A DNA stretch of 64,000 nucleotides. Source: Acidobacteriota bacterium (GTDB taxonomy: Bacteria > Acidobacteriota > Vicinamibacteria > Vicinamibacterales > CAVVIG01). Position numbers and translations under genes: made by a program. This document shows positions 9,510 through 64,000 of the stretch, one piece after another (the first letter of the stretch is position 1; each line of letters begins with the position of its first letter). Below the pieces are notes generated by a model that was not told the DNA's origin, searched no databases, and worked only from the letters and a program-made list of their open reading frames with translations. The stretch is from NCBI GenBank assembly GCA_018268955.1, contig JAFDVO010000023.1:7668-71667 (forward strand). The letters are read 5' to 3'.

Positions 9510-10396
9510 GCGAATGCGTCCTCGAATGTGTGAAGCGCCTGGCGCAGCGCCTCGATGGCAACGTCGGGTGCCGGCGCGAGCGGCTGGCGCGGCCAGCCAG
9601 CGTCGATACCGACCAGGCGCAGCGCGGCCTTGAGGCCGGGCACGCCGTAGCCCGTGGAAATCAGTCGTGCGAGCGGCAGCAGTTGCCGCTGCAAGGGCCT
9701 CGCGTCGTCCATCCGCCCGGCGCGCGCCAGCTCGAACAGCCGCACGCACGGCCCGGGCACGAGCCCGGCCAGCGCGAGGATGCCGCCGTCCACGCCGGCC
9801 GCGAGCGCGGCGTGGAACGTCGACGCGGACCCCGCCAGCACCGAGAACGCCGGCGAGCCGACCGCCACGAGATCCGCGATCTGCGCGATGTCGCTCCCGG
9901 ATTCCTTGATGCCGACGATGTTCGGGTGCGCGGCGAGGGTGCGGACCGTGTCCGGCTGCAGGTTCACGCCGGTGGCCGCGGTGAAGTTATACAGCAGCAC
10001 GGGGATCGGCGAGGCATCGGCCACGGCGCGGTAGTGCCGCTCGAAGGCAGCGCCGGTCATCTGCCCCTTGAAGAAGCAGGGGGTGCGGACCAGCACGGCA
10101 TCGGCGCCAAGCGCCGCGGCCCGCGTTGCCGCCTGGATGGCGGCGCGTGTGGACTCGCGCGCCGTGCCCGCAATCAGCGGCCGGCCGGCCGGCACGATCG
10201 CCCGTGCCTCCCCAATCACCCGCTCCGCCTCTTCGTCCGTGAGCAGGCCGGCCTCGCCGTTCGTGCCGAGGACGACGACGCCCGTGAGGGGAGAGGCGAG
10301 CCAGCGCGGGAGGGCGGCACGGAAACGCGGGAGATCGAGATCGCCGTCTTCGTCGAAGGGCGTGGGCAGTGGAGCGAAGACACCGGTCAGGTGCAT
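9506..10396 (-). CDS. DapA-family aldolase/synthase (possible 4-hydroxy-2-oxoglutarate aldolase)
   Basis: A 296-residue TIM-barrel class I aldolase of the dihydrodipicolinate synthase/N-acetylneuraminate lyase superfamily. Visible are GTNGE (44-48, where DapA has GTTGE), the catalytic Tyr in YNFTAATG (Y136) and the Schiff-base lysine in GIKESG (K164). Translational coupling to an alanine-glyoxylate aminotransferase favours an enzyme that splits 4-hydroxy-2-oxoglutarate into pyruvate and glyoxylate rather than true DapA, but this is inference. The ATG at 10396 lies 6 nt after a TACAAT box; a GTG at 10402 is an alternative start. Confidence 0.85.
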   Translation of the reverse strand: MHLTGVFAPLPTPFDEDGDLDLPRFRAALPRWLASPLTGVVVLGTNGEAGLLTDEEAERVIGEARAIVPAGRPLIAGTARESTRAAIQAATRAAALGADAVLVRTPCFFKGQMTGAAFERHYRAVADASPIPVLLYNFTAATGVNLQPDTVRTLAAHPNIVGIKESGSDIAQIADLVAVGSPAFSVLAGSASTFHAALAAGVDGGILALAGLVPGPCVRLFELARAGRMDDARPLQRQLLPLARLISTGYGVPGLKAALRLVGIDAGWPRQPLAPAPDVAIEALRQALHTFEDAFA

Positions 10397-10402
10397 CGCC
10401 AC

Positions 10403-10408
10403 ATTGTA
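10403..10408 (-). promoter_or_regulatory. Candidate -10 box of a leaderless promoter (aldolase)
   Basis: Minus-strand TACAAT is followed by GTGGCG and then ATG at 10396. The mRNA would begin at or beside the start codon. Confidence 0.5.
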
Positions 10409-10730
10409 TGGCCGTGCGAGCGGGGCACAGGCCTATCGGCTGTGGGGCGATCCGTGTCGAACGGAGCGGCGCGACGCGGGTGTCCGTTCGGAAACGGCCC
10501 GGCTGGCCAATGGATTGGCCGCGCCGCAGGCGACGCTGCAGGCAGGCGCGAAGCGAAATCACGAACAAAACGTGCGAAGACCGCACGGGCTCCGCCGGCA
10601 CGGGTGCAGGGCAGGCCAAGGGCTTGCCTCGCGCGCGGTGCGGACCGTCCCACGTGGTAAACGCCTGAATCGTACTTAACGCACAGCCGCAGAACGTTTT
10701 AGGTTCCGTTTACACAACGGCAAAACCGCG

Positions 10731-10745
10731 TGGCACCCAGCGTGC
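10731..10745 (+). promoter_or_regulatory. Candidate sigma-54 (-24/-12) promoter of the subtilase gene
   Basis: TGGCACCCAGCGTGC contains the invariant GG, exactly 10 nt, then GC. It matches the TGGCAC half of the consensus fully and the TTGC half in three of four positions. A sigma-54 activator is encoded two genes downstream. Transcription would begin near 10757. Confidence 0.55.
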
Positions 10746-10889
10746 GCTTGTATCCGGCGCCGCTCATCTCCCGTGCGCGACACCCCCGGCGTTCCTCCTT
10801 ATCGGCAGGAACGCGCTGCGCTGCAGCGCCGCGCACGTGGAGAGCGGGTCCGGCATTTCGCAAACCGTCCGTTGTCCCTGGAGCGTTCG

Positions 10890-12674
10890 ATGGCATCTAC
10901 CCCCCTGGTCAGGCGAGTGGCCCTCGCGCTGACGCTGGCCTCGACCACCTGGCTTGCCGCACCGGCCACTGCGGCCCCTCATCGTGCCCGGCTCGGGTCC
11001 GATCTCGAGCGCCGGGTCACACGCGGCGATCAGGCAATTGACGTGATCGTCCACGGCAGCGAGGCGGAGGTCACCGCGCTCGCCCGCCGCTACAACCTGC
11101 GCGTGCGCCGGTTGCTCCGGAACGGCGCGGTGCTCGGCGTCACGGCCGGGCAGCTCGACGCCGTGGCGCAGGACCCCGCTGTTGACCACCTCGCCTCCGA
11201 CGCAGACGTCCACTCCAGCAGCGTCACCACCGAAGCCATTGGCGCCGACCAGGTGCTGGCCGGCCTTCCCGCGCTCCCCCCCATTTCGGGTGCGGGCATT
11301 GGCGTGGCGGTGATTGACTCGGGCATCGACACGCGGCATCCGGCGCTGCGCAACCGGGTTGTCTACACGAAGGACTACCTTGGTGGCGACGGCAGCGATG
11401 CCTACGGCCACGGCACCCACGTCGGCGCGCTCATCGCGGGGCGGGCGGGGCAGGCGGCGGACACGGCGGCCTACATGGGCGTGGCGCCGGCCGCACGGCT
11501 CATCAACCTCCGGGTGCTCGATGCGAACGGCGCCGGCCGGGCAAGCGACGTGATCGACGCCATCGACTGGGCCATCGAGAACCGGCAGGCCTTCAACATC
11601 CGCATCATCAACCTCTCCCTCGGCGCTCCCGTCGTCCAGTCGTACAAGGACGATCCGCTGTGCGAAGCGGTGGAACGGGCCGTGTCCGCCGGCCTCGTCG
11701 TGGTGGCCGCGGCGGGCAACTACGGGGTGACGAAGGATGGGGCGCTCATCTACGGCGGCATCACGGCGCCGGGGAACGACCCGGCGGCGCTCACGGTTGG
11801 CGCGCTGGACCTGCACGACACGTCCCTCCGGACTGACGACACCCTCGCGAAGTACTCCTCGAAAGGCCCCAGCCTCTACGACCTCGTGCTGAAGCCGGAC
11901 CTTGTGGCGCCGGGCAGCCGGCTGGTGTCCGCCGAAGCGGCCGGTTCCACGCTGGCGCTGCGCTACCCCGAGAAGCACGTGGCCGGGTCGGGCACTGCCG
12001 GCTACATGCAGCTTTCAGGCACGAGCATGGCGGCGGCGGTGGCGAGCGGGGCGGCGGCGCTGCTGCTCGACGAGCGACCGCGGCTGAACCCGAGCGACGT
12101 GAAGCTGGCGCTGCAGCTGACCAGCTCGCACGTAAACGGCGAAGGGTTCGCGACGGTGGGTGCGGGGAGCCTGAACTCCCTGGCGGCGGCGAAGTTCGTG
12201 GCGCACCCGCGGCGCGGGCTGCCGACGACCACCATTGGCGGGGCGAGCGTTCAGGCGGCGGGCGTGGCGTTCGTGACGAGCAGCCAGGTGCAGCCGCAGA
12301 CCATCGTGTGGGGCGGCTCGACGCTGCAGGGCGGGACGATCGTGTGGGGCGGCGCCGCGATGCGCGGCGCAACTATCGTGTGGGGCACGGCTGACACGAT
12401 CGTCTGGGGGGGTAATGCAGGCGACGCGTCAACGATCGTGTGGGGCGGCTCAACCACTCAAGGCTCCACCATTGTGTGGGGCGGCTCAGCGCTCTGGGGT
12501 AACACCATAGTGTGGGGTGAAGCCGCAACGATCGTTTGGGGAGAACAGACCGACTACACCACCATAGTCTGGGGCGGCTCGGTTCAGGGCAGCACTATCG
12601 TGTGGGGAGAAGCAGCACTGGGGAGCAGCACGATTGTTTGGGGCGAAGTGGACACCATTGTATGGGGTGGATGA
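10890..12674 (+). CDS. Secreted subtilisin-like (S8) protease with C-terminal TIVWG repeats
   Basis: A 594-residue protein. Residues 1-28 form a Sec signal peptide ending in APATAA. An inhibitor-like prodomain region follows (about 30-110). The S8 catalytic domain has D143 (VIDSGID), H177 (GHGTHV) and S379 (SGTSMA), with the oxyanion Asn in AAAGNYG. From residue 471 to the end the sequence is only spacers of 2-9 residues between twelve copies of TIVWG followed by G, E or T. The ATG at 10890 is chosen over an upstream in-frame start because it begins the signal peptide and has GGAG before it. The substrate is unknown. The tail could be a cell-surface anchor, an aggregation module or a source of released peptides. 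Confidence 0.93.
   Translation: MASTPLVRRVALALTLASTTWLAAPATAAPHRARLGSDLERRVTRGDQAIDVIVHGSEAEVTALARRYNLRVRRLLRNGAVLGVTAGQLDAVAQDPAVDHLASDADVHSSSVTTEAIGADQVLAGLPALPPISGAGIGVAVIDSGIDTRHPALRNRVVYTKDYLGGDGSDAYGHGTHVGALIAGRAGQAADTAAYMGVAPAARLINLRVLDANGAGRASDVIDAIDWAIENRQAFNIRIINLSLGAPVVQSYKDDPLCEAVERAVSAGLVVVAAAGNYGVTKDGALIYGGITAPGNDPAALTVGALDLHDTSLRTDDTLAKYSSKGPSLYDLVLKPDLVAPGSRLVSAEAAGSTLALRYPEKHVAGSGTAGYMQLSGTSMAAAVASGAAALLLDERPRLNPSDVKLALQLTSSHVNGEGFATVGAGSLNSLAAAKFVAHPRRGLPTTTIGGASVQAAGVAFVTSSQVQPQTIVWGGSTLQGGTIVWGGAAMRGATIVWGTADTIVWGGNAGDASTIVWGGSTTQGSTIVWGGSALWGNTIVWGEAATIVWGEQTDYTTIVWGGSVQGSTIVWGEAALGSSTIVWGEVDTIVWGG
12300..12671 (+). repeat. Twelve-copy TIVWG protein repeat
   Basis: Twelve TIVWG pentapeptides occur in 124 residues. 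The DNA encoding them is strongly diverged: all three Ile codons, all four Val codons and three of the four Thr codons are used, while the amino acids do not change. That pattern points to selection on the peptide rather than recent DNA duplication. GC content falls toward the 3' end. Confidence 0.9.
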
Positions 12675-12718
12675 GCCTCGCCAATCCGCGGATTCGCACA
12701 TCCTCGCGGGAGACAACC

Positions 12719-12748
12719 ATGGTCGCAGTAATCATCTGGGGCGATTGA
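12719..12748 (+). CDS. Nine-codon ORF MVAVIIWGD resembling the TIVWG repeat
   Basis: ATG to TGA, nine codons, in a different frame from the subtilase and 44 nt after its stop. It has a well-placed Shine-Dalgarno sequence, GGGAG (12708-12712), 6 nt from the ATG. Its core VIIWGD matches the TIVWGE/G unit of the protease tail. It could encode a short signalling peptide, be a leader peptide for the HD-GYP gene 36 nt downstream, or be a relic of a longer repeat array. Translation is not proven. Confidence 0.45.
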   Translation: MVAVIIWGD

Positions 12749-12753
12749 GCCGA

Positions 12754-12759
12754 TATACT
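12754..12759 (+). promoter_or_regulatory. Candidate -10 box for the HD-GYP gene
   Basis: TATACT lies 25 nt before the HD-GYP ATG. It is followed by a small hairpin CCGGAG-CTGA-CTCCGG (12775-12780 is its right arm) just before the start. The -35 box is not clear. Confidence 0.35.
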
Positions 12760-12784
12760 CCTCACCGGAGCTGACTCCGGAACA

Positions 12785-15058
12785 ATGGACAGCTTCTCTA
12801 AACTCAGACCGGTAGTCCAGGCCTACGTATCTGCGGTTGTCGCCGTAGGCGTACTGGTCCTCGGACTATCGGTCCATTCCCTGACGGTAGCTCCGATCGG
12901 ATCAGAGTGGCTGATCTTGGCCGGACTGACCGTCTTGACCGGCTCATTCTCAGTCAAGGTCCCGTCGATAAACGCCTACATCTCAGTCTCGGAGGCATTC
13001 GTCTTCGCCTCGGTCTTGCTGTTCGGTGCCGAAGCGGGCACTGTGACGGTCCTTCTGGAGTGTCTTGTAATTGTACTCTGGATGAAGCCGCAGGGGCGTC
13101 CGCTCTATCGAATGCTGTTCAACCTGGCGGCACCCGCTGTGTCCATCTGGCTGGCAGGCCACTGCTTCTACTTCCTCTCCGGCATACGTCCTTATAGCGA
13201 AGTATTCACACCGCTGCCCCAGCTCTTCGTGCCGCTGCTCGCCTTCACCGCGGCATACTTCCTGTTGAACAGCACGCTCGTGGCGGTCGCCGTCGGTCTG
13301 GAAACCCAGCGCTCGCCCACGCAGATCTGGTGGACGAACTTCGCCTGGCTGTCGGTGAACTACTTCAGCGGCGCTTCGCTGGCAGCCCTGATCGTCACGT
13401 ATACGCAGAAGCTCGAGTTCAGCACGCTCGCCGTCATCGTCCCGCTCCTTGTCGTCTCCTACCTGACGTTCCGCACGGCGATGGGGCGAGCAGAAGACAG
13501 CTACAACCACCTCTCCCAGTTGAACCGGTTGTACCTGTCGACGATTGAAACACTGGCGATGGCGATCGACGCGAAGGATCAGGTCACGCACGGTCACATC
13601 AGGCGTGTGCAGACCTACGCGGTTGGCCTCGCGAAGCACGTCGGGGTCACCGACGACAACCTTCTCAAGGCCATCGAAGCCGCCGCGCTTCTGCACGACA
13701 TGGGCAAGCTGGCAGTGCCGGAGCACATCCTCAACAAGCCGGGAAAACTCACGCCAGCAGAGTTCGAGAAGATGAAGCTGCATGCCGGTATCGGCGCAGA
13801 CATTCTGTCGGCGATCGACTTCCCCTATCCGGTCGTGCCGATTGTGCGGCATCATCACGAGAACTGGGACGGAACCGGCTATCCAGATGGCATCCGTGGT
13901 ACCGACATCCCAATCGGCGCTCGGATTCTCTCCGTAGTCGATTGCTTCGATGCGCTGACGTCTGATCGACCCTACCGCCCTCGGCTGTCCGACGATGATG
14001 CACTCGCCATCTTACGGGAGCGACGGGGTGTCATGTACGACCCGTTGGTTGTCGATACCTTCGTACGCGTGTATAAGACCATCGGCCCTGGTGAGCTTGA
14101 ACCGGCTGACGTTCACGCTGGTGCAATCCGAGACATCGCGAACGCTACTGCACCGGATTCCGCCGCCTTCGTCAGCGCGCATAGCTCACATCCGGCCAAC
14201 TTCGCAGATGTGGGCGAGCTGCTTCTAACTCAGGTTGCCGAGACGATCCCGTTCAAGCTCGGCATCGTGTTCCAATACGACAAGAACACCGATCAGCTCT
14301 CTGTTGGCGCGGCGAAGGGTGTAAACGCCAGTACGGTTCGAGACTTGCGGATTGCTCGTGGTGAGAAGCTCAGTGGGTGGGTCGCCGCAAATGGCCGTTC
14401 AATTGTTAATTCAGACCCCCAGCTTGATCTCCACACATGCGGCTTCAGCGCTGCCAACGGACTAGCTTTTACCCTCAGCGTTCCCGTCATCGACGGCAGC
14501 GACCTCGCTGCGGTTGTTTCGCTGTATGGAGATGAAGCGTTTTCCGAGGAACATCGTGAGCACCTTGAAAAGTCTGTTCACTCGCGACACGCTAATAGCA
14601 GCGTGACGTGTACCGGCGCGGGTGCAGTGGTTGACCTGCCGGACCACCGTGGCTCGCTCGAAGGCCCGGCACACGTATCTGCGGTGATCCGCGTGGAAGT
14701 CCTGAATTGGGACGAAGCAGGCCAGGTCGCAAACGGGAGACTCCTGGCGCAGCGGTTTGTCGAGCTCTGCGAAGAAATGAGGCGAGCACTTTCGGCCGCT
14801 GCACTTGTGGTGCGAACGAGAGACCACGAGCTCATTGCCCTCATGCCACGCGTGAATGCTCAAGAGCTCCGCCGCGCGTCGGTGGTGATCAGGCATATTG
14901 CTGCCGCTAGTCACATCGGCACACCTGAGGGTTTTCGCCTCGAGTTGGCCGTTGATACCTTTCTCGCCCCGGCCGACGCAGGAATCATCTGGGACATTCT
15001 GTCCACCGAAGGCTCCCACTTGCCTGCGGTCTTCGGCGCCTCTGCAAAGGTGCACTGA
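12785..15058 (+). CDS. Membrane HD-GYP domain signalling protein with GAF domain
   Basis: A 757-residue protein. Residues 15-235 hold about seven hydrophobic helices forming an integral membrane sensor (MASE-like; class not recognised). The HD-GYP domain has H304-D305 (LLHDMGK) and HHHENWDGTGYP (356-367), the signature of c-di-GMP phosphodiesterases. Residues 470-600 look like a GAF domain. The C-terminal 150 residues may be a degenerate GGDEF fold without the active-site motif. Likely activity: c-di-GMP hydrolysis at the inner membrane in response to an envelope signal. GC content is lower than in the flanking core genes. It sits between the TIVWG protease and the sigma-54 activator. Confidence 0.88.
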   Translation: MDSFSKLRPVVQAYVSAVVAVGVLVLGLSVHSLTVAPIGSEWLILAGLTVLTGSFSVKVPSINAYISVSEAFVFASVLLFGAEAGTVTVLLECLVIVLWMKPQGRPLYRMLFNLAAPAVSIWLAGHCFYFLSGIRPYSEVFTPLPQLFVPLLAFTAAYFLLNSTLVAVAVGLETQRSPTQIWWTNFAWLSVNYFSGASLAALIVTYTQKLEFSTLAVIVPLLVVSYLTFRTAMGRAEDSYNHLSQLNRLYLSTIETLAMAIDAKDQVTHGHIRRVQTYAVGLAKHVGVTDDNLLKAIEAAALLHDMGKLAVPEHILNKPGKLTPAEFEKMKLHAGIGADILSAIDFPYPVVPIVRHHHENWDGTGYPDGIRGTDIPIGARILSVVDCFDALTSDRPYRPRLSDDDALAILRERRGVMYDPLVVDTFVRVYKTIGPGELEPADVHAGAIRDIANATAPDSAAFVSAHSSHPANFADVGELLLTQVAETIPFKLGIVFQYDKNTDQLSVGAAKGVNASTVRDLRIARGEKLSGWVAANGRSIVNSDPQLDLHTCGFSAANGLAFTLSVPVIDGSDLAAVVSLYGDEAFSEEHREHLEKSVHSRHANSSVTCTGAGAVVDLPDHRGSLEGPAHVSAVIRVEVLNWDEAGQVANGRLLAQRFVELCEEMRRALSAAALVVRTRDHELIALMPRVNAQELRRASVVIRHIAAASHIGTPEGFRLELAVDTFLAPADAGIIWDILSTEGSHLPAVFGASAKVH

Positions 15059-15188
15059 ATCGGCGTACCGCTGTAAAACGAAGCACAGTCCCGTTCGCCT
15101 TCCTTTCGCGCGACTTGCACACATTCGGCAGCCGGGAAAGCCTTTCGCCTTCCGACCGCGACCTGACCCTGCCACAATCTCGGGCACC

Positions 15189-17879
15189 ATGGCTGAGACA
15201 GCACAGCTGGCCAACGTTACGGAGCTGTCAGCGGCTGGATTGTTTACCAAAGCCCTCCAGTCGCTGAATAGATTGCCTGACCTGCGCTCGAAAAATGCGC
15301 ACGGCGAGGTCCTACGGCTTGAATTGCTCGAGCGGACAGGTGACCTGGAGGCTGCCCGGACTCTGGGGATTAGGCTACTGAAGAGTCGGGGACTCTCGCC
15401 CACCCAGCGTAGTGCCTGCGAAATAGTGATGGGGTTAGTCTCATGGGATGTCGGCGATGTCGCCACCGCGGTCGCGTGCTTTGAGCGCGGAATGCGATGC
15501 GCCGAGGAAAGTGAGGACCTCCTACACCAGTGCTGGGCTGGTATACGCCTACTCGTCGCACGATCCAGCACCACGAGCGCTGACAGCGTTTCGAAGCTAC
15601 TGACCCAGGTCAGACATGACGTTGTGAGGCTTGGAGAACCCACTGTTCGCGCCGCCCTACACATCTTTCTTGGCGAGATCGAAGGAAAGAGGGGTTTGGC
15701 TTCTGTTTCTCTCCGACATACCGAACTCGGACTGACAATCCTAAAGCGGGCGCCCAATGTGTGGCTTGAAGCCGTAGCCGAAAACAATCTCATGGCGGCT
15801 GCAATAATGCGCCTGGATGTCGACTCAGCGCTTGAGCATGGAGAGAGAGCTCTGGCATTGGGGAACACGAGTGGGGCTCGTGCAATTACACGTGCCGCCG
15901 TGGGGAACTTGGGGTATGTAAGCTACCTAAGGGGTGAGCTGCTGCAATCTCGCGACCTCGTCATGCAGGCGCAGGCTCTCTCGCCTTCTGCCAGCGAGTC
16001 GATGAACGGGACGCTTGAGACGTTGGCACGAACCTACGTTGCCGCTGGTGAGTGGACAGAAGCGACTGCGATTTTGGAGAGACTCGAAGAGGCTTTCACA
16101 TCAGAGACAGACCGACTCCTGTACCCAAATCGCTATGCGATGCTAACAAAGGTCGACATTCTGATGCGCCGAGCCGACTGGGGCGCGGCTCACCGCGTGG
16201 CCAGAGAACTCGTCGAGATCTCGGAATTGGTAGGGGATCACAGTTTACGCATTATTGCCACTGCGAGGTACGCGGTAGCCGCATCATCGATCGGCGAGAA
16301 CACGAAGGCAAACGAGCTCCTCGACGAAGTCGGCAAGCTGCTGGTTGACAACTACTCGCCGCGCCACGTCGCGGAGTACGAATTCGCTCTCGCCAAGATT
16401 CTGGCTGAACAATCCCACGAAGCAAGCAGCCAATCTCACGAACTACGAGCAGCTCGGATCTACAAAGCCCTAAATTGCGTTTGGCAGGGGCCCCCGCACG
16501 AAACGGATGGCCCTGTTCCTTGTCTGGCTGGCGCCGGTATCCATGAAGCGGTTCACGAGATAGCCTCGCTCCTGCTCCATGCCGGAAGACCGGAATTGGT
16601 TGCAGTGGGGCTACTCAGGGTGGCCGAGACTGAGGGTTACGCGAAGTATGGCCGCGCGACTAAGGTCTCTAAGCACCATGAACGTCAATTGGGGGAGTTC
16701 GGTGGCCTCGAATCGAGTACGCCTCGGAGGTTCAGAGTCGGTGCTTCGGGAAGCGGCGAGTCTGTGACGCTCGAACTGAGTGAGCCCCTTTCGGCCGAAG
16801 ATCAGAGTTGCCTAAACAGCCTGAGCTTCATCTTGTCGGCAACTCAGGAATTGGCGCAGGCTCGCGCTCAACGTGAAGAGCGCATGACGCTGTGGCCCAT
16901 GGACGAGTTGCCGGCTGTCGATGATGAATCGATCGTGACCGGGCGCTTACGGGAGTTCATGCTCGCCGTCCGCAAGATAGCTGACGCCAAGGTTACGGTC
17001 CTTATCACCGGGGAGAGCGGCACCGGCAAGGAGGTCATTGCCCGGGCCTTGCACCGATACTCGCATCGGGCAACCAAGCCGTTTGTCGCACTGAACTGCA
17101 CGGCCGTCCCCCGTGACCTGATGGAAAGCCACCTGTTTGGCTTCCGCCGCGGGGCCTTCACTGGGGCGGACCGCGACAACCTCGGACTGTTCCGGTCGGC
17201 GAAGGACGGCACCATCTTCCTCGACGAAATTGGTGACCTTAATCTGGATCTGCAGCCGAAGCTGCTGCGCGTACTCGAGACGAGCCAGGTCAACCCGCTG
17301 GGCGATGCCGCAACGGTACCGGTCAACGTCCGCATCGTGGCAGCCACGAACGCCAATCTCAAACGGATGGTCGAACAAGGGCGATTTCGTGAGGACCTGT
17401 ACTACCGGCTCAACGTGTATCCAATTCAGATCCCGCCCTTGCGCGAGCGCAGAGAGGAAATCGCTCCGCTGGCTCAGTTCTTCGCAGGCAAGTGGTCCTA
17501 CGAGTTCAGGGGGAAACCCACGACGGTCTCACCGGAGCTGATGGCTCACCTCGAACTCCATCCGTGGCCCGGCAACATCCGGCAGTTGAGCAATGAGATC
17601 AACCGCATGGTGGCGCAGGCGGATTCAGGGGAGCCGCTCACCCTCAAGCACCTCACCCCAGAGATGAAGGAGCAGATCGAAGAGGTCCGCACAAAGGCCG
17701 ACGGCCAGGAGATCACGCTGCCGCTGACAGGCACGCTGCAGGACGCCGTCGACACACTCGAGCGCCAGATGATCGAGCTCGCCCTCAAGCTCCACAACGG
17801 CAAGCTCGAAGACGCCGCCAAGGCGCTCGGCCTCTCCCGCAAAGGGCTCTACCTCAAACGGCAGCGCCTCGGGCTCTGA
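15189..17879 (+). CDS. Sigma-54-dependent transcriptional activator with large helical-repeat sensor domain
   Basis: An 896-residue protein. Residues 1-530 are an all-helical, TPR-like region with many paired helices rather than a receiver domain. The AAA+ domain has Walker A GESGTGKE (K614), GAFTGA (655-660) for sigma-54 contact, FLDEIGDL as Walker B, and WPGNIRQL. The C-terminus is a Fis-type HTH (KLEDAAKALGLSRKGLYLKR). The start at 15189 is chosen because upstream codons lack coding character and overlap the spacer. With no phospho-acceptor receiver, activity is probably controlled by ligand or protein binding to the N-terminal repeats. A likely target is the -24/-12 element at 10731, but this is inference. 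Confidence 0.92.
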   Translation: MAETAQLANVTELSAAGLFTKALQSLNRLPDLRSKNAHGEVLRLELLERTGDLEAARTLGIRLLKSRGLSPTQRSACEIVMGLVSWDVGDVATAVACFERGMRCAEESEDLLHQCWAGIRLLVARSSTTSADSVSKLLTQVRHDVVRLGEPTVRAALHIFLGEIEGKRGLASVSLRHTELGLTILKRAPNVWLEAVAENNLMAAAIMRLDVDSALEHGERALALGNTSGARAITRAAVGNLGYVSYLRGELLQSRDLVMQAQALSPSASESMNGTLETLARTYVAAGEWTEATAILERLEEAFTSETDRLLYPNRYAMLTKVDILMRRADWGAAHRVARELVEISELVGDHSLRIIATARYAVAASSIGENTKANELLDEVGKLLVDNYSPRHVAEYEFALAKILAEQSHEASSQSHELRAARIYKALNCVWQGPPHETDGPVPCLAGAGIHEAVHEIASLLLHAGRPELVAVGLLRVAETEGYAKYGRATKVSKHHERQLGEFGGLESSTPRRFRVGASGSGESVTLELSEPLSAEDQSCLNSLSFILSATQELAQARAQREERMTLWPMDELPAVDDESIVTGRLREFMLAVRKIADAKVTVLITGESGTGKEVIARALHRYSHRATKPFVALNCTAVPRDLMESHLFGFRRGAFTGADRDNLGLFRSAKDGTIFLDEIGDLNLDLQPKLLRVLETSQVNPLGDAATVPVNVRIVAATNANLKRMVEQGRFREDLYYRLNVYPIQIPPLRERREEIAPLAQFFAGKWSYEFRGKPTTVSPELMAHLELHPWPGNIRQLSNEINRMVAQADSGEPLTLKHLTPEMKEQIEEVRTKADGQEITLPLTGTLQDAVDTLERQMIELALKLHNGKLEDAAKALGLSRKGLYLKRQRLGL

Positions 17880-18099
17880 GCCAGTCGGGCACTGCAGGCC
17901 CAAGGCGCTCGACGACCGCCGCCTGCCGCGCACGCGCCACCGACGCGGAGAGCACCCGCTGCGACCGGGGCTCCCCGCGCTCCGCCTCCAGACGGCCCGC
18001 TCGAATCCAGTAGTACACCGTCCGCCGGGACACCCCCAGCACCGCCGCTGCCTCGTCCACCCGCAGCGTCCGCTTCGCCAGCCATGCCGCTTGTGCCAT
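17854..18099 (-). CDS. Small excisionase-like helix-turn-helix protein
   Basis: An 81-residue protein. Residues 12-42 (LRVDEAAAVLGVSRRTVYYW) form a MerR/excisionase-type HTH followed by a basic wing (GRLEAERGEPRSQRVLS), as in HTH_17 proteins. Its last eight codons plus stop overlap the 3' end of the sigma-54 activator gene, read in the opposite direction. It is convergent with that gene and divergent from the methyltransferase. Probably a DNA-binding regulator; no recombinase or integrase partner is nearby. The ATG at 18099 is chosen because coding character begins there. Confidence 0.65.
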   Translation of the reverse strand: MAQAAWLAKRTLRVDEAAAVLGVSRRTVYYWIRAGRLEAERGEPRSQRVLSASVARARQAAVVERLGPAVPDWLRARGAAV

Positions 18100-19224: not shown

Positions 19225-20391
19225 ATGCGCATTTACCTCTCGTCCACCTACACGGACCTCGTCGATCACCGCGCCGCCGTCGCACGCCTCCTCCGCCAGA
19301 TGGGGCACGAGGTCATCGGCATGGAGGAGTACGTCGCCGAAGGCGGCCGCCCGCTCGACGTCTGCCTGCGGGATGTCGACCGCGCCGACATCTACATCGG
19401 CATCTTCGCCTGGCGCTACGGCTTCGTCCCCGAGGCGCACGGCGGACCTCCGGACACGCCCGTCGGCACGCCGCCGCGCCTCTCCATCACCGAGTCCGAG
19501 TTCCGGCGCGCCGTTCCGAAGCGCCCGCTGATCTTCCTGCTGGACCCGAAGGCGAGCTGGCCCGTGCCGCACATCGATGCGGTGGCCGGCAAGCCCGAGG
19601 ACGCCGCCGCCGTGAAGAAGCTCCGCGAGGAGCTGGCCGGCCAGTGGCTCGCCGGCTTCTTCACCACGCCCGAGGACCTCGCACGCCAGGTCGGCGCCGC
19701 CGTGTACCGCCGGGAAGTGACCGACCGGCTCGGCACCGTGAGCGCCGCACCAGGCCTCACCGAGTCGCTCATGTTCGGCGGCCCGATTTCGGACTCCACC
19801 CTCGGGAGCCTCCAGCAGTCGCTCGTCCAGGCGCCGGAGCTGCGCGTCCTCACGGTCGATCTCCGCGATGGCCGCTACTGGTGGTCCACGCGGCTCTTCT
19901 TCCTCGCCGCCGTCGCGGGTGTGCTCGCCGGCACCCGCCTCCTGATCTTCACGGAGGCGGGCGAACGCTACCTCGGCTCGGCCACGACGACGGTGGTGCG
20001 GGACCGGTTGGCGATGATGAGCCCGCCGCTCCAGCAGTTCCTCGAACGCTGCCGCCAGCAGCCGGGCGGCTCGCCGGACCTCGCCCGCGCGCTCGACCAG
20101 CACGCGCTGCTCTGGAACATGGTGGTCCCGCCGGGCATCGAGGACGCGGAACGCGCGTTCGTCAGCGCACGCGATCTGCGCCGCTGGCTGGGCGACGACC
20201 TCCTCGAACGCTCGGTCAACCAGGACGGCGACGCCGTCTCCAACGACTTCCTCAAGGCCATCGTCACCTGGCCGCACCCGTACGTGCCGATCACCGACGG
20301 CGGCGTGCTGCGCAAGGTGGTGGCCCGCGCAACGGTGGCGGACAACCTCGCGCGCATCTTCGTCGAAGGGCTCGACCGCGCGCGGCCCTGA
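19225..20391 (+). CDS. DUF4062 domain protein
   Basis: A 388-residue protein. Residues 1-100 match DUF4062 (MRIYLSSTYTDLVDHR, then VDRADIYIGIFAWRYG and SITESEFRRA), a TIR/Toll-like alpha-beta fold often found fused to NTPases or repeats in signalling and conflict proteins. The remainder (about 170-388) has no recognised domain; a hydrophobic stretch LFFLAAVAGVLAG lies near residues 231-243. No NTPase motif is present. It directly follows the frameshifted methyltransferase. A role in defence or stress sensing is possible but not shown. Confidence 0.8.
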   Translation: MRIYLSSTYTDLVDHRAAVARLLRQMGHEVIGMEEYVAEGGRPLDVCLRDVDRADIYIGIFAWRYGFVPEAHGGPPDTPVGTPPRLSITESEFRRAVPKRPLIFLLDPKASWPVPHIDAVAGKPEDAAAVKKLREELAGQWLAGFFTTPEDLARQVGAAVYRREVTDRLGTVSAAPGLTESLMFGGPISDSTLGSLQQSLVQAPELRVLTVDLRDGRYWWSTRLFFLAAVAGVLAGTRLLIFTEAGERYLGSATTTVVRDRLAMMSPPLQQFLERCRQQPGGSPDLARALDQHALLWNMVVPPGIEDAERAFVSARDLRRWLGDDLLERSVNQDGDAVSNDFLKAIVTWPHPYVPITDGGVLRKVVARATVADNLARIFVEGLDRARP

Positions 20392-21864: not shown

Positions 21865-23301
21865 TCAGCGTAAGTTGTATTTCTTCACGTAGTAGCGGAA
21901 CGAGCGGAAGCTCATGCCGAGCAGCTCCGCGGCCTTCACCTGCACGCCGTTCGCGCGCTCGAGCGCCTGTGCGAGGTAGCCGCGCTCGATCTCCTGCACG
22001 CGCGCCTCGAGGTCCAGGCCTTCTTCCGGCAACAGCTCGTGGACGACCGGCGCGCCGCCGGATGCGGCGGGGCGCGGCGTGCTGCTGCGCACCACCGACG
22101 GCAGGCTTTCCGGCTGGATCGAGGGGGTCGGCTCGAGGGCCACCGCACGCTCGATGACGTTCTCCAGCTCGCGGATGTTCCCAGGCCAGTCGTGCTTGAT
22201 CAGCAGCTCCATCGCCGGGCGCGCGATCGCGGTGACCGCCTTCTCCATCTGCCCCGCGAACTTCGCGAGGAAGTGCTCGGCGAGCAGCGGGATGTCCTCG
22301 CGCCGGTCCCGCAGCGGCGGGAGCGCAATCGGGATGACGTTAATCCGGTAGAAGAGATCCTCGCGGAACCGCCCCTCGGCCACCGCCTTCGTGAGGTCCT
22401 GGTTCGTCGCGGCAATCACGCGGATGTCCGCCTGCAGTTCTTCGAGCCCGCCCACGCGGCGGAAGCGCCGCTCCTGCAGCACGCGCAGCAGCTTCACCTG
22501 CATCACCGGGCTCATCTCCCCGATTTCGTCGAGGAAGATGGTCCCCTTCTCCGCCACTTCGAGCAGCCCCTTCTTGTTCTGCTCCGCGCCGGTGAACGCG
22601 CCGCGCATGTGCCCGAACAGCTCGGATTCGAGCAGCGTTTCAGGCATCGCGCCGCAGTTGAGGGAGACCATCGGCTTGTCGCGCCGCAGCGAGTGGTAGT
22701 GCACCGCCTGCGCGACGAGCCCCTTGCCGGTGCCCGATTCGCCCGTGATGAGGATGGTGCTGTTGGTCTTCGCGACGGTCTCCACCATCTTGAAGACGTC
22801 GAGCATCGACCCGCTCCGCCCGATGATGTTCGAGAAGGCGTGCGTCGCGCCGAGCGTCCGCTTCAGCAGGATGTTCTCCTGCCGGAGCTGCCGGTTCTCC
22901 ACCTTCTCGCGCACCTTCATCTTGAGCAGGTCCACGTCGAACGGCTTGCTCAGGTAATCGCACGCGCCGAGCCGCATCGCCTCGATCGCCGTCTCGGTGG
23001 AGGCGAACGCGGTGATCATGATGCCGAGGATGTCCGGGTCCAGCTTCTTGGCCGCGCGCAGCACGTCCACGCCGCTCATGTCCGGCATCTTGATGTCCGA
23101 GATGAGCAGGTCGAACGGCCCGCGCTCGAGCGCGGCAACGGCGCTCCGGCCGTTCTCCGCGAGCACGACCTCGTAGCCTTCGCGCTTCAGCACGATCGCC
23201 AGCAGTTCCCGCATCGACCGCTCATCGTCCACGACGAGCACGCGCGGTGCAGCCGGCTTCTCCGTTGCGGTCGGCGCTGGCATCCTCACGGTGGCGTTCA
23301 T
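21865..23301 (-). CDS. pilR: NtrC-family response regulator PilR
   Basis: A 478-residue sigma-54 activator. Receiver domain with phospho-acceptor D69 and K119; AAA+ domain with Walker A GESGTGKG, intact GAFTGA (234-239), FLDEIGEM and WPGNIRELENV; C-terminal Fis-type HTH (VKAAELLGMSFRSFRYYVKK). In characterised systems PilR with sigma-54 drives pilin (pilA) transcription; pilA is not in this window. Its start overlaps the pilS stop by 4 nt, so the pair is translationally coupled. Confidence 0.95.
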   Translation of the reverse strand: MNATVRMPAPTATEKPAAPRVLVVDDERSMRELLAIVLKREGYEVVLAENGRSAVAALERGPFDLLISDIKMPDMSGVDVLRAAKKLDPDILGIMITAFASTETAIEAMRLGACDYLSKPFDVDLLKMKVREKVENRQLRQENILLKRTLGATHAFSNIIGRSGSMLDVFKMVETVAKTNSTILITGESGTGKGLVAQAVHYHSLRRDKPMVSLNCGAMPETLLESELFGHMRGAFTGAEQNKKGLLEVAEKGTIFLDEIGEMSPVMQVKLLRVLQERRFRRVGGLEELQADIRVIAATNQDLTKAVAEGRFREDLFYRINVIPIALPPLRDRREDIPLLAEHFLAKFAGQMEKAVTAIARPAMELLIKHDWPGNIRELENVIERAVALEPTPSIQPESLPSVVRSSTPRPAASGGAPVVHELLPEEGLDLEARVQEIERGYLAQALERANGVQVKAAELLGMSFRSFRYYVKKYNLR

Positions 23302-62029: not shown

Positions 62030-62110
62030 GAACCCCCAACCTCGAACCTCAAACCCCGAACCTCCGACCTCCAACCTCCAACCTCCAACCTCCAACCTCC
62101 AACCTCTCAG
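62030..62110. repeat. Word-repeat block (CCAACCTC word)
   Basis: CCCCCAACCTCGAACCTCAA, then CCCCGAACCTCCGACC and five near-identical AACCTCC units in a row, ending with CAACCTCTCAG. It is a single-arm block between the divergent CBS and cupin genes. Confidence 0.85.
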
Positions 62111-63903: not shown

Positions 63904-64000
63904 GGGCAGGTTGGGGACTCGGGGCTCGGGACTCGGAATTCGGGACTGGGGACTCGGGATTCGGGGCTGGTTCCGGACGACACGGTGCCGAATCGGTCCG
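63904..64000. repeat. Word-repeat block (GGGACTCGGGACT word) at window edge
   Basis: GGGGACTCGGGGCTCGGGAC, then TCGGAATTCGGGACTGGGGA and CTCGGGATTCGGGGCTGG: about eight copies of GGGACTCG variants. Same word as 6511-6573. It may continue beyond the window. Confidence 0.8.

Follow-up and report, generated by a model that had tools for sequence, protein, structure and literature searches.

A candidate peptide-signalling operon joining a WG-repeat subtilase, a nine-residue micropeptide and a TPR-sigma54 activator in Acidobacteriota

We have found that a secreted subtilase gene of an Acidobacteriota bacterium is followed by a nine-codon micro-ORF, MVAVIIWGD, whose end resembles the repeats in the tail of the subtilase. 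Comparison of homologous loci shows selection on the amino acids of the micro-ORF, which is confined to the subtilase/HD-GYP operon and is associated with an upstream sigma54 promoter. We give about an even chance to the proposal that the WG-tail subtilase, the 9-residue micropeptide, an HD-GYP/GAF membrane protein and a TPR-sigma54 activator form a four-gene peptide-signalling module. More tentatively, and with the balance somewhat against it, the module may be a pheromone circuit in which the co-expressed protease, bearing up to 22 copies of the motif, is a self-releasable pheromone reservoir or a decoy. To judge from the sequence, this would be a bacterial peptide-signalling circuit of a sort that has not been described before.

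Background

Acidobacteriota is an abundant phylum that is largely known from metagenomes. Cytosolic TPR-type receptors for peptide pheromones have been described for Firmicutes and their phages. Within the open-access literature, we found nothing comparable to TPR peptide signalling in Acidobacteriota, searches on HD-GYP/sigma-54/TPR and on autoinducing peptides had the same outcome, and no paper containing the string TIVWG was found. SIP, a leaderless 8-residue peptide of Streptococcus pyogenes, is a ligand of the TPR regulator RopB and has the secreted protease SpeB under its control (PMC6565748). Tandem pheromone copies, as in Phr-type propeptides, are cut out by extracellular proteases (PMC11343458).

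Methods

The window, to which all coordinates refer, is the whole stretch of DNA that was analysed, 64,000 nucleotides in length. The membrane domain of the HD-GYP protein served as the query against 162 genomes of the order, and 53 homologous loci were retrieved. A sigma54 site was defined as TGG[CT]A[CT]-N5-NTGC at no more than 500 nt from the subtilase start. Because the regular expression used for the micro-ORF itself requires hydrophobic-hydrophobic-Trp, and thus carries a selection bias, a blind scan was run with one DNA pattern over 84,980 named genomes.

Results

The operon is arranged in the order subtilase, micro-ORF, membrane HD-GYP/GAF protein and TPR-sigma54 activator, with the following features:

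10731..10745, + strand: sigma54-type promoter, TGGCAC-N5-GTGC (TGGCACCCAGCGTGC), located 159 nt ahead of the start codon (ATG) of the subtilase
10890..12674, + strand: secreted subtilase (S8 peptidase; PF00082, E=1.8e-46), intact, with an N-terminal signal-like hydrophobic stretch
12300..12671, + strand: C-terminal tail of the subtilase, 124 residues with 12 TIVWG repeats, predicted disordered; TGA at 12672-12674
12708..12712, + strand: Shine-Dalgarno-like GGGAG before the micro-ORF, called from sequence, with GGAG/GAGG kept in homologues
12719..12748, + strand: micro-ORF MVAVIIWGD and stop, 9 aa, putative leaderless peptide signal by conserved sequence and linkage
12729..12755, + strand: putative sigma28-type promoter TAAT-N16-GCCGATA over the micro-ORF (TAAT 12729-12732, GCCGATA 12749-12755)
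12785..15058, + strand: membrane (MASE9-like) HD-GYP + GAF protein, probable c-di-GMP phosphodiesterase (HD_5 E=6.6e-41, GAF_2, MASE9) and conserved neighbour
15189..17879, + strand: TPR - GAF-like - sigma54 activator (AAA+) - Fis-type HTH protein, putative peptide receptor, start codon picked by homology

The micro-ORF comes directly after the subtilase in a frame that differs from that of the tail, and ends 36 bases before the next large ORF. Its counterpart in a genome of the same genus is MLNVIIWGD, and other genomes carry MKTLIVWGE, MKTIFVWD and MKPVIVWD. Such a micro-ORF occurs at most 200 nt upstream of the HD-GYP gene in 37 of the 53 loci (36 distinct), which are related, come mostly from metagenome assemblies and do not count as independent events. 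The consensus over the 36 distinct loci of the order is M-x-x-[LI]-I-[IV]-W-G-[DE]; shuffled windows gave a mean of 0.015, and 712 kb of background gave 0 matches. When codons -3 to +2 were aligned on the Trp, second-position diversity was close to 0 in the hydrophobic core, third positions reached 0.5-0.7 and the flanking DNA was saturated (0.75). Leu is encoded by CTA, CTC, CTG, TTA and TTG across the set, with the sixth codon, CTT, in L142, and the Gly codon is GGC nearly always. All three frames relative to the subtilase occur, and the spacing is variable, nearly always between 18 and 114 nt. Since second positions are kept and third positions are free, while the flanks have diverged and every frame is used, the conserved entity is a peptide of 8-10 residues. 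The three frames, the micro-ORF's own Shine-Dalgarno sequence and start, and its conservation across families rule out a frameshifted thirteenth repeat of the tail.

The blind scan returned 25 matches. The 20 in Acidobacteriota-type metagenome assemblies all lie immediately before the same HD-GYP gene, and most also come after the subtilase, as do all whose contig reaches far enough upstream; the other five (Dickeya, Providencia, Lentibacillus, Cerasicoccus and Thauera) are without subtilase or HD-GYP neighbours and look like chance. With the strict pattern, 396 genomes of the phylum were scanned; 7 of the 42 that belong to the order had a match, compared with 0 of the remaining 354, and the reversed pattern gave 0 matches. 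Four of the non-acidobacterial matches of the blind scan (L131, L140, L146 and L154) form two look-alike pairs, MRLLIIWGD/MHLLIIWGD and MQHFIIWGD/MQHFIVWGD; their frames are open upstream and may be the ends of ordinary proteins.

Linkage to the operon is close. No micro-ORF was found at the seven HD-GYP relatives without an adjacent subtilase (L111, L112, L115, L119, L120, L125 and L129), the sole exception to this rule being L102, where MTSRTIVWG lies upstream of the HD-GYP gene, no subtilase adjoins and the micro-ORF has its own sigma54-like site 52 nt upstream. The TPR-sigma54 gene is absent nearby in L102, whose genome (89% complete) yielded no WG tail. Of 29 micropeptide loci, 24 have a sigma54 site ahead of the subtilase; such a site occurs in 2.7% of random windows and in none of seven loci that combine the subtilase and HD-GYP genes but lack the micropeptide. 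In L109, the operon is retained and both the micro-ORF and the sigma54 site are missing. Like the lack of a subtilase and a TPR-sigma54 gene nearby in L102, this counts against the proposed module. In L118, L123 and L124, a WG-subtilase is followed directly by the HD-GYP gene, again without either element, which is perhaps a degenerate or different form of the operon. As the sigma54 site and a sigma54 activator belong to one operon, the arrangement suggests autoregulation through that site.

The DNA of the micro-ORF may have a second function. GCCGATA-like DNA follows the stop in 13 loci whose peptide has two residues past the Trp, and TAAT lies over the Leu codon in 13/13 loci with CCGATA versus 4/19 (Fisher p=7e-6, kinship ignored). 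TAAT-N16-GCCGATA, which we take to follow the sigma28 promoter consensus, is thus read as a putative sigma28-type promoter of the HD-GYP gene that overlaps the micro-ORF, and two FliA/WhiG-type sigma factors are encoded in the genome. A search of the same genome for the micro-ORF end plus GCCGATA gave no further copy besides the window site. Because promoter and coding sequence overlap, some third positions of the micro-ORF may be under DNA-level constraint. That the promoter is all that is conserved, with the ORF incidental, would fit the co-occurrence of TAAT and CCGATA and the presence of the two sigma factors; it is nonetheless highly improbable, being largely refuted by the many loci without CCGATA that keep the ATG, the Shine-Dalgarno sequence, LIIWGE, the stop and free third positions.

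Another reading takes the micro-ORF as a cis-acting leader, an attenuator or translational coupler of the HD-GYP gene, whose nascent LIIWG would stall the ribosome and never become a free signal. Its position 16-63 nt upstream of that gene, a conservation at the amino acid level that would suit nascent-chain stalling, and the near-constant GGC all point in this direction. However, the downstream spacing is variable and the flanks are saturated, no RNA structure was found around the micro-ORF (mean z -0.2), and an Rfam search of window positions 10300-18000 gave no RNA leader or riboswitch match. A leader would also leave the likeness of the peptide to the tail motif unexplained, and in L084 the micropeptide end is joined in frame to the subtilase tail (ending TKSIIVWD and stop). 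We therefore regard a leader as unlikely and prefer a free peptide related to the tail. As a point against the module, the residue before the Trp is the same in tail and micropeptide at 18 of 32 loci versus 12.9 after shuffling (p=0.033, kinship ignored). The WGD end of the micropeptide may recall ComX, a resemblance that was no more than a lead.

The subtilase that bears the tail is assigned to Peptidase S8 by its profile match and by its catalytic Asp143 (D143), His174 (H174) and Ser379 (S379), which are invariant across 31 homologues, as is Asn277. From a shallow alignment, the catalytic domain gave a good structure model and the tail was predicted as disordered (pLDDT <35). There are exactly 12 TIVWG copies in the tail, spaced by 8, 11 or 12 residues. 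Their core is identical in amino acids throughout, while third codon positions vary (Thr: ACC 5, ACG 5, ACT 2; Ile: ATC 7, ATT 3, ATA 2; Val: GTG 7, GTC 2, GTT 2, GTA 1; Gly: GGC 7, GGT 2, GGA 2, GGG 1) and the spacer residues differ; Tandem Repeats Finder detected weak pieces only, with 65-80% matches. A fixed core with varying third positions and differing spacers argues for purifying selection on the core rather than fresh duplication of DNA, and selection at the protein level is thus supported by the sequence. These counts bear out the initial annotation, which described twelve invariant TIVWG copies with scattered codons, including all Ile codons and all four Val codons; neither the adjacent micro-ORF nor the operon figured in it.

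That annotation also claimed selection on the tail peptide, for which codon scatter is now joined by conservation between genomes. Elsewhere in the order, every complete subtilase homologue at the same operon has a tail, which is made of 2 to 22 copies of a broader motif, [IVLA][IVFA]W[GSAT], in which the Trp is invariant. Tail-less homologues and random changes at the WG positions, named at the outset as the contrary outcome, did not occur among the operon orthologues, in some of which the Gly is swapped as a block for Ser, Ala or Thr. Residues flanking the Trp are mostly homogenised within one tail and different between tails (TIIWAD, TIVWSD, GIAWSD, QIIWGD, SIIWGN). As the motif varies in this manner, the selected unit is [hydrophobic]-[hydrophobic]-Trp-[small] and not TIVWG itself. 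A WG-tail match in a plasmid record, to a Streptomyces pentapeptide-repeat protein, was weak (25% identity) and was judged unrelated.

WG tails are commoner than the micropeptide and were found in 22 of 27 genomes of the family. Among the family loci retrieved, 17 are of another operon type, and in 16 of these a GNAT acetyltransferase gene (PF13302) adjoins or overlaps the subtilase end (L005, L042, L044-L046, L048-L056, L058 and L059). The genome under study has examples of this second, unexplained locus type on contigs C43 and C56. Near the WG-subtilase in L057 and L055, a MASE-like membrane domain is fused to histidine kinase modules in place of HD-GYP. Since tails also occur outside the micropeptide operon, their role extends beyond the module, which lowers confidence in a role as reservoir alone.

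Several functions had been suggested for the tail from the sequence of the window. Release of peptides by proteolysis has gained circumstantial support from the adjacent gene, whose product would be a free peptide with the tail motif and whose operon also includes a TPR regulator. An adhesive, amyloid-like or anchoring stalk, whose assembly is capped or chaperoned by the micropeptide, would be in keeping with hydrophobic Trp repeats of variable copy number that are homogenised inside each tail, and with tails that occur without a micropeptide. Yet the shallow-alignment model is disordered and not a solenoid, the L102 genome has the micropeptide without a detected WG tail, and capping would need no sigma54-TPR regulator; we consider such a stalk quite unlikely and favor the signalling module.

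The two downstream genes encode the putative output of the module. At the sequence level, the HD-GYP protein has the marks of a phosphodiesterase, namely an HD_5 domain with LLHDMGK and HHHENWDGTGYPDG. The last gene encodes a sigma54-dependent activator (PF00158, E=1.6e-66; PF02954, E=7.4e-8). Its TPR region was modelled with a pLDDT of 89.7, and re-alignment of Foldseek matches gave Z scores of 25.1, 24.6 and 23.6 for Rap-pheromone complexes, 24.6 for MalT, 23.1 for NprR, 22.4 for AimR and 18.2 for PlcR-PapR, with eukaryotic TPR proteins (APPBP2, APC subunits) ranking above the pheromone receptors. As TPR folds are common, a superhelix like that of Rap and NprR is necessary and not sufficient for a receptor role, and the modelled TPR region is compatible with a peptide receptor without being proof of one. 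Asn240 was rejected as a receptor signature; it is near-invariant, but is the consensus TPR Asn. The genome encodes five oligopeptide-binding proteins (PF00496).

A free micropeptide might instead be purely intracellular, for example a co-factor for the HD-GYP membrane domain or for the TPR regulator that takes no part in cell-cell signalling. It lacks a signal sequence, and its linkage to the HD-GYP gene is strict even in L102, which has no TPR-sigma54 gene beside it. On the other hand, leaderless peptides of similar size are exported elsewhere (SIP, PMC6565748), and the motif is common to the tail of a secreted protein. A purely intracellular role seems rather unlikely to us, and a signal that acts between cells is the reading developed below.

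Other features of the window include a second sigma54 activator at 21871-22815 (- strand), which shares 41% identity with the TPR-sigma54 regulator over the AAA+ part of the latter, a DUF4062-domain protein (PF13271) near the operon at 19225-20391 (+ strand), and two seven-base tandem arrays, AACCTCC in about 11 copies at 62031-62106 and GGGACTC in about 7 copies at 63914-63970.

Discussion

The SIP-RopB-SpeB system and tandem pheromones serve as precedents for our proposal of a leaderless signal that is read by a TPR-sigma54 activator. MVAVIIWGD would be made without a leader and would bind the TPR domain of the activator; by analogy, the peptide-bound activator would then induce the joint transcript of subtilase and micropeptide, closing a positive loop, and the HD-GYP protein would couple the state of the circuit to c-di-GMP. 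The tail, a secreted disordered chain that exposes 2 to 22 copies of an [IV][IV]WG-type motif, most likely belongs to the same recognition network. It may be a releasable peptide reservoir or a competing display; of all steps in the proposal, what exactly the tail does is the least certain.

If the proposal is true, a nine-codon ORF, which falls under the usual limits of gene calling, is a widespread signal in one order and is tied to protease secretion and c-di-GMP. It could also account for the long IVWG runs on a secreted protease family. Synthesis of micropeptides of this size is trivial, which opens the hypothesis to direct testing. Even if it is not a pheromone, the micro-ORF is an unusually small gene with clear selection at the amino acid level.

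Comparison with known systems

The subtilase is a member of the Peptidase S8 family (PF00082) by Pfam score and motifs, with a complete catalytic triad, and differs from it by a WG-repeat tail that lies outside every matched Pfam/NCBIfam model. MalT (PDB 1hz4), a sugar-sensing activator of the NTPase/LuxR type, is likewise a transcription activator with a region of TPR repeats as sensor (Z 24.6), whereas the output of the window regulator is sigma54-type.

RRNPPA receptors (Rap, Rgg, NprR, PlcR, PrgX and AimR) have a similar TPR superhelix, with Z of 18-25 to Rap, NprR, AimR and PlcR, and a small peptide gene beside the receptor. Here, the micro-ORF is in the same cluster, two genes upstream of the TPR-sigma54 gene and not immediately adjacent to it. 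RRNPPA output is through an N-terminal HTH or a Rap-type domain, in contrast to the sigma54 AAA+ domain and Fis HTH found here, and the micropeptide is without a secretion leader; the putative receptor role is drawn from the TPR model. In view of this different output domain, we do not assign the system to RRNPPA.

Phr-type tandem propeptides also place several motif copies on one secreted chain, with extracellular proteolysis as a Phr feature, whereas in the present case protease and repeats form a single protein, and processing of the tail is putative. The closest parallel in overall design is SIP-RopB-SpeB, which shares a leaderless hydrophobic peptide of 8-9 residues, a secreted protease and a TPR transcription regulator with the Acidobacteriota operon, the latter as read from its genes. 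The Acidobacteriota regulator differs in being a sigma54 AAA+ activator, a membrane HD-GYP protein is added and the protease bears repeats of the peptide motif; homology between the peptides is not claimed.
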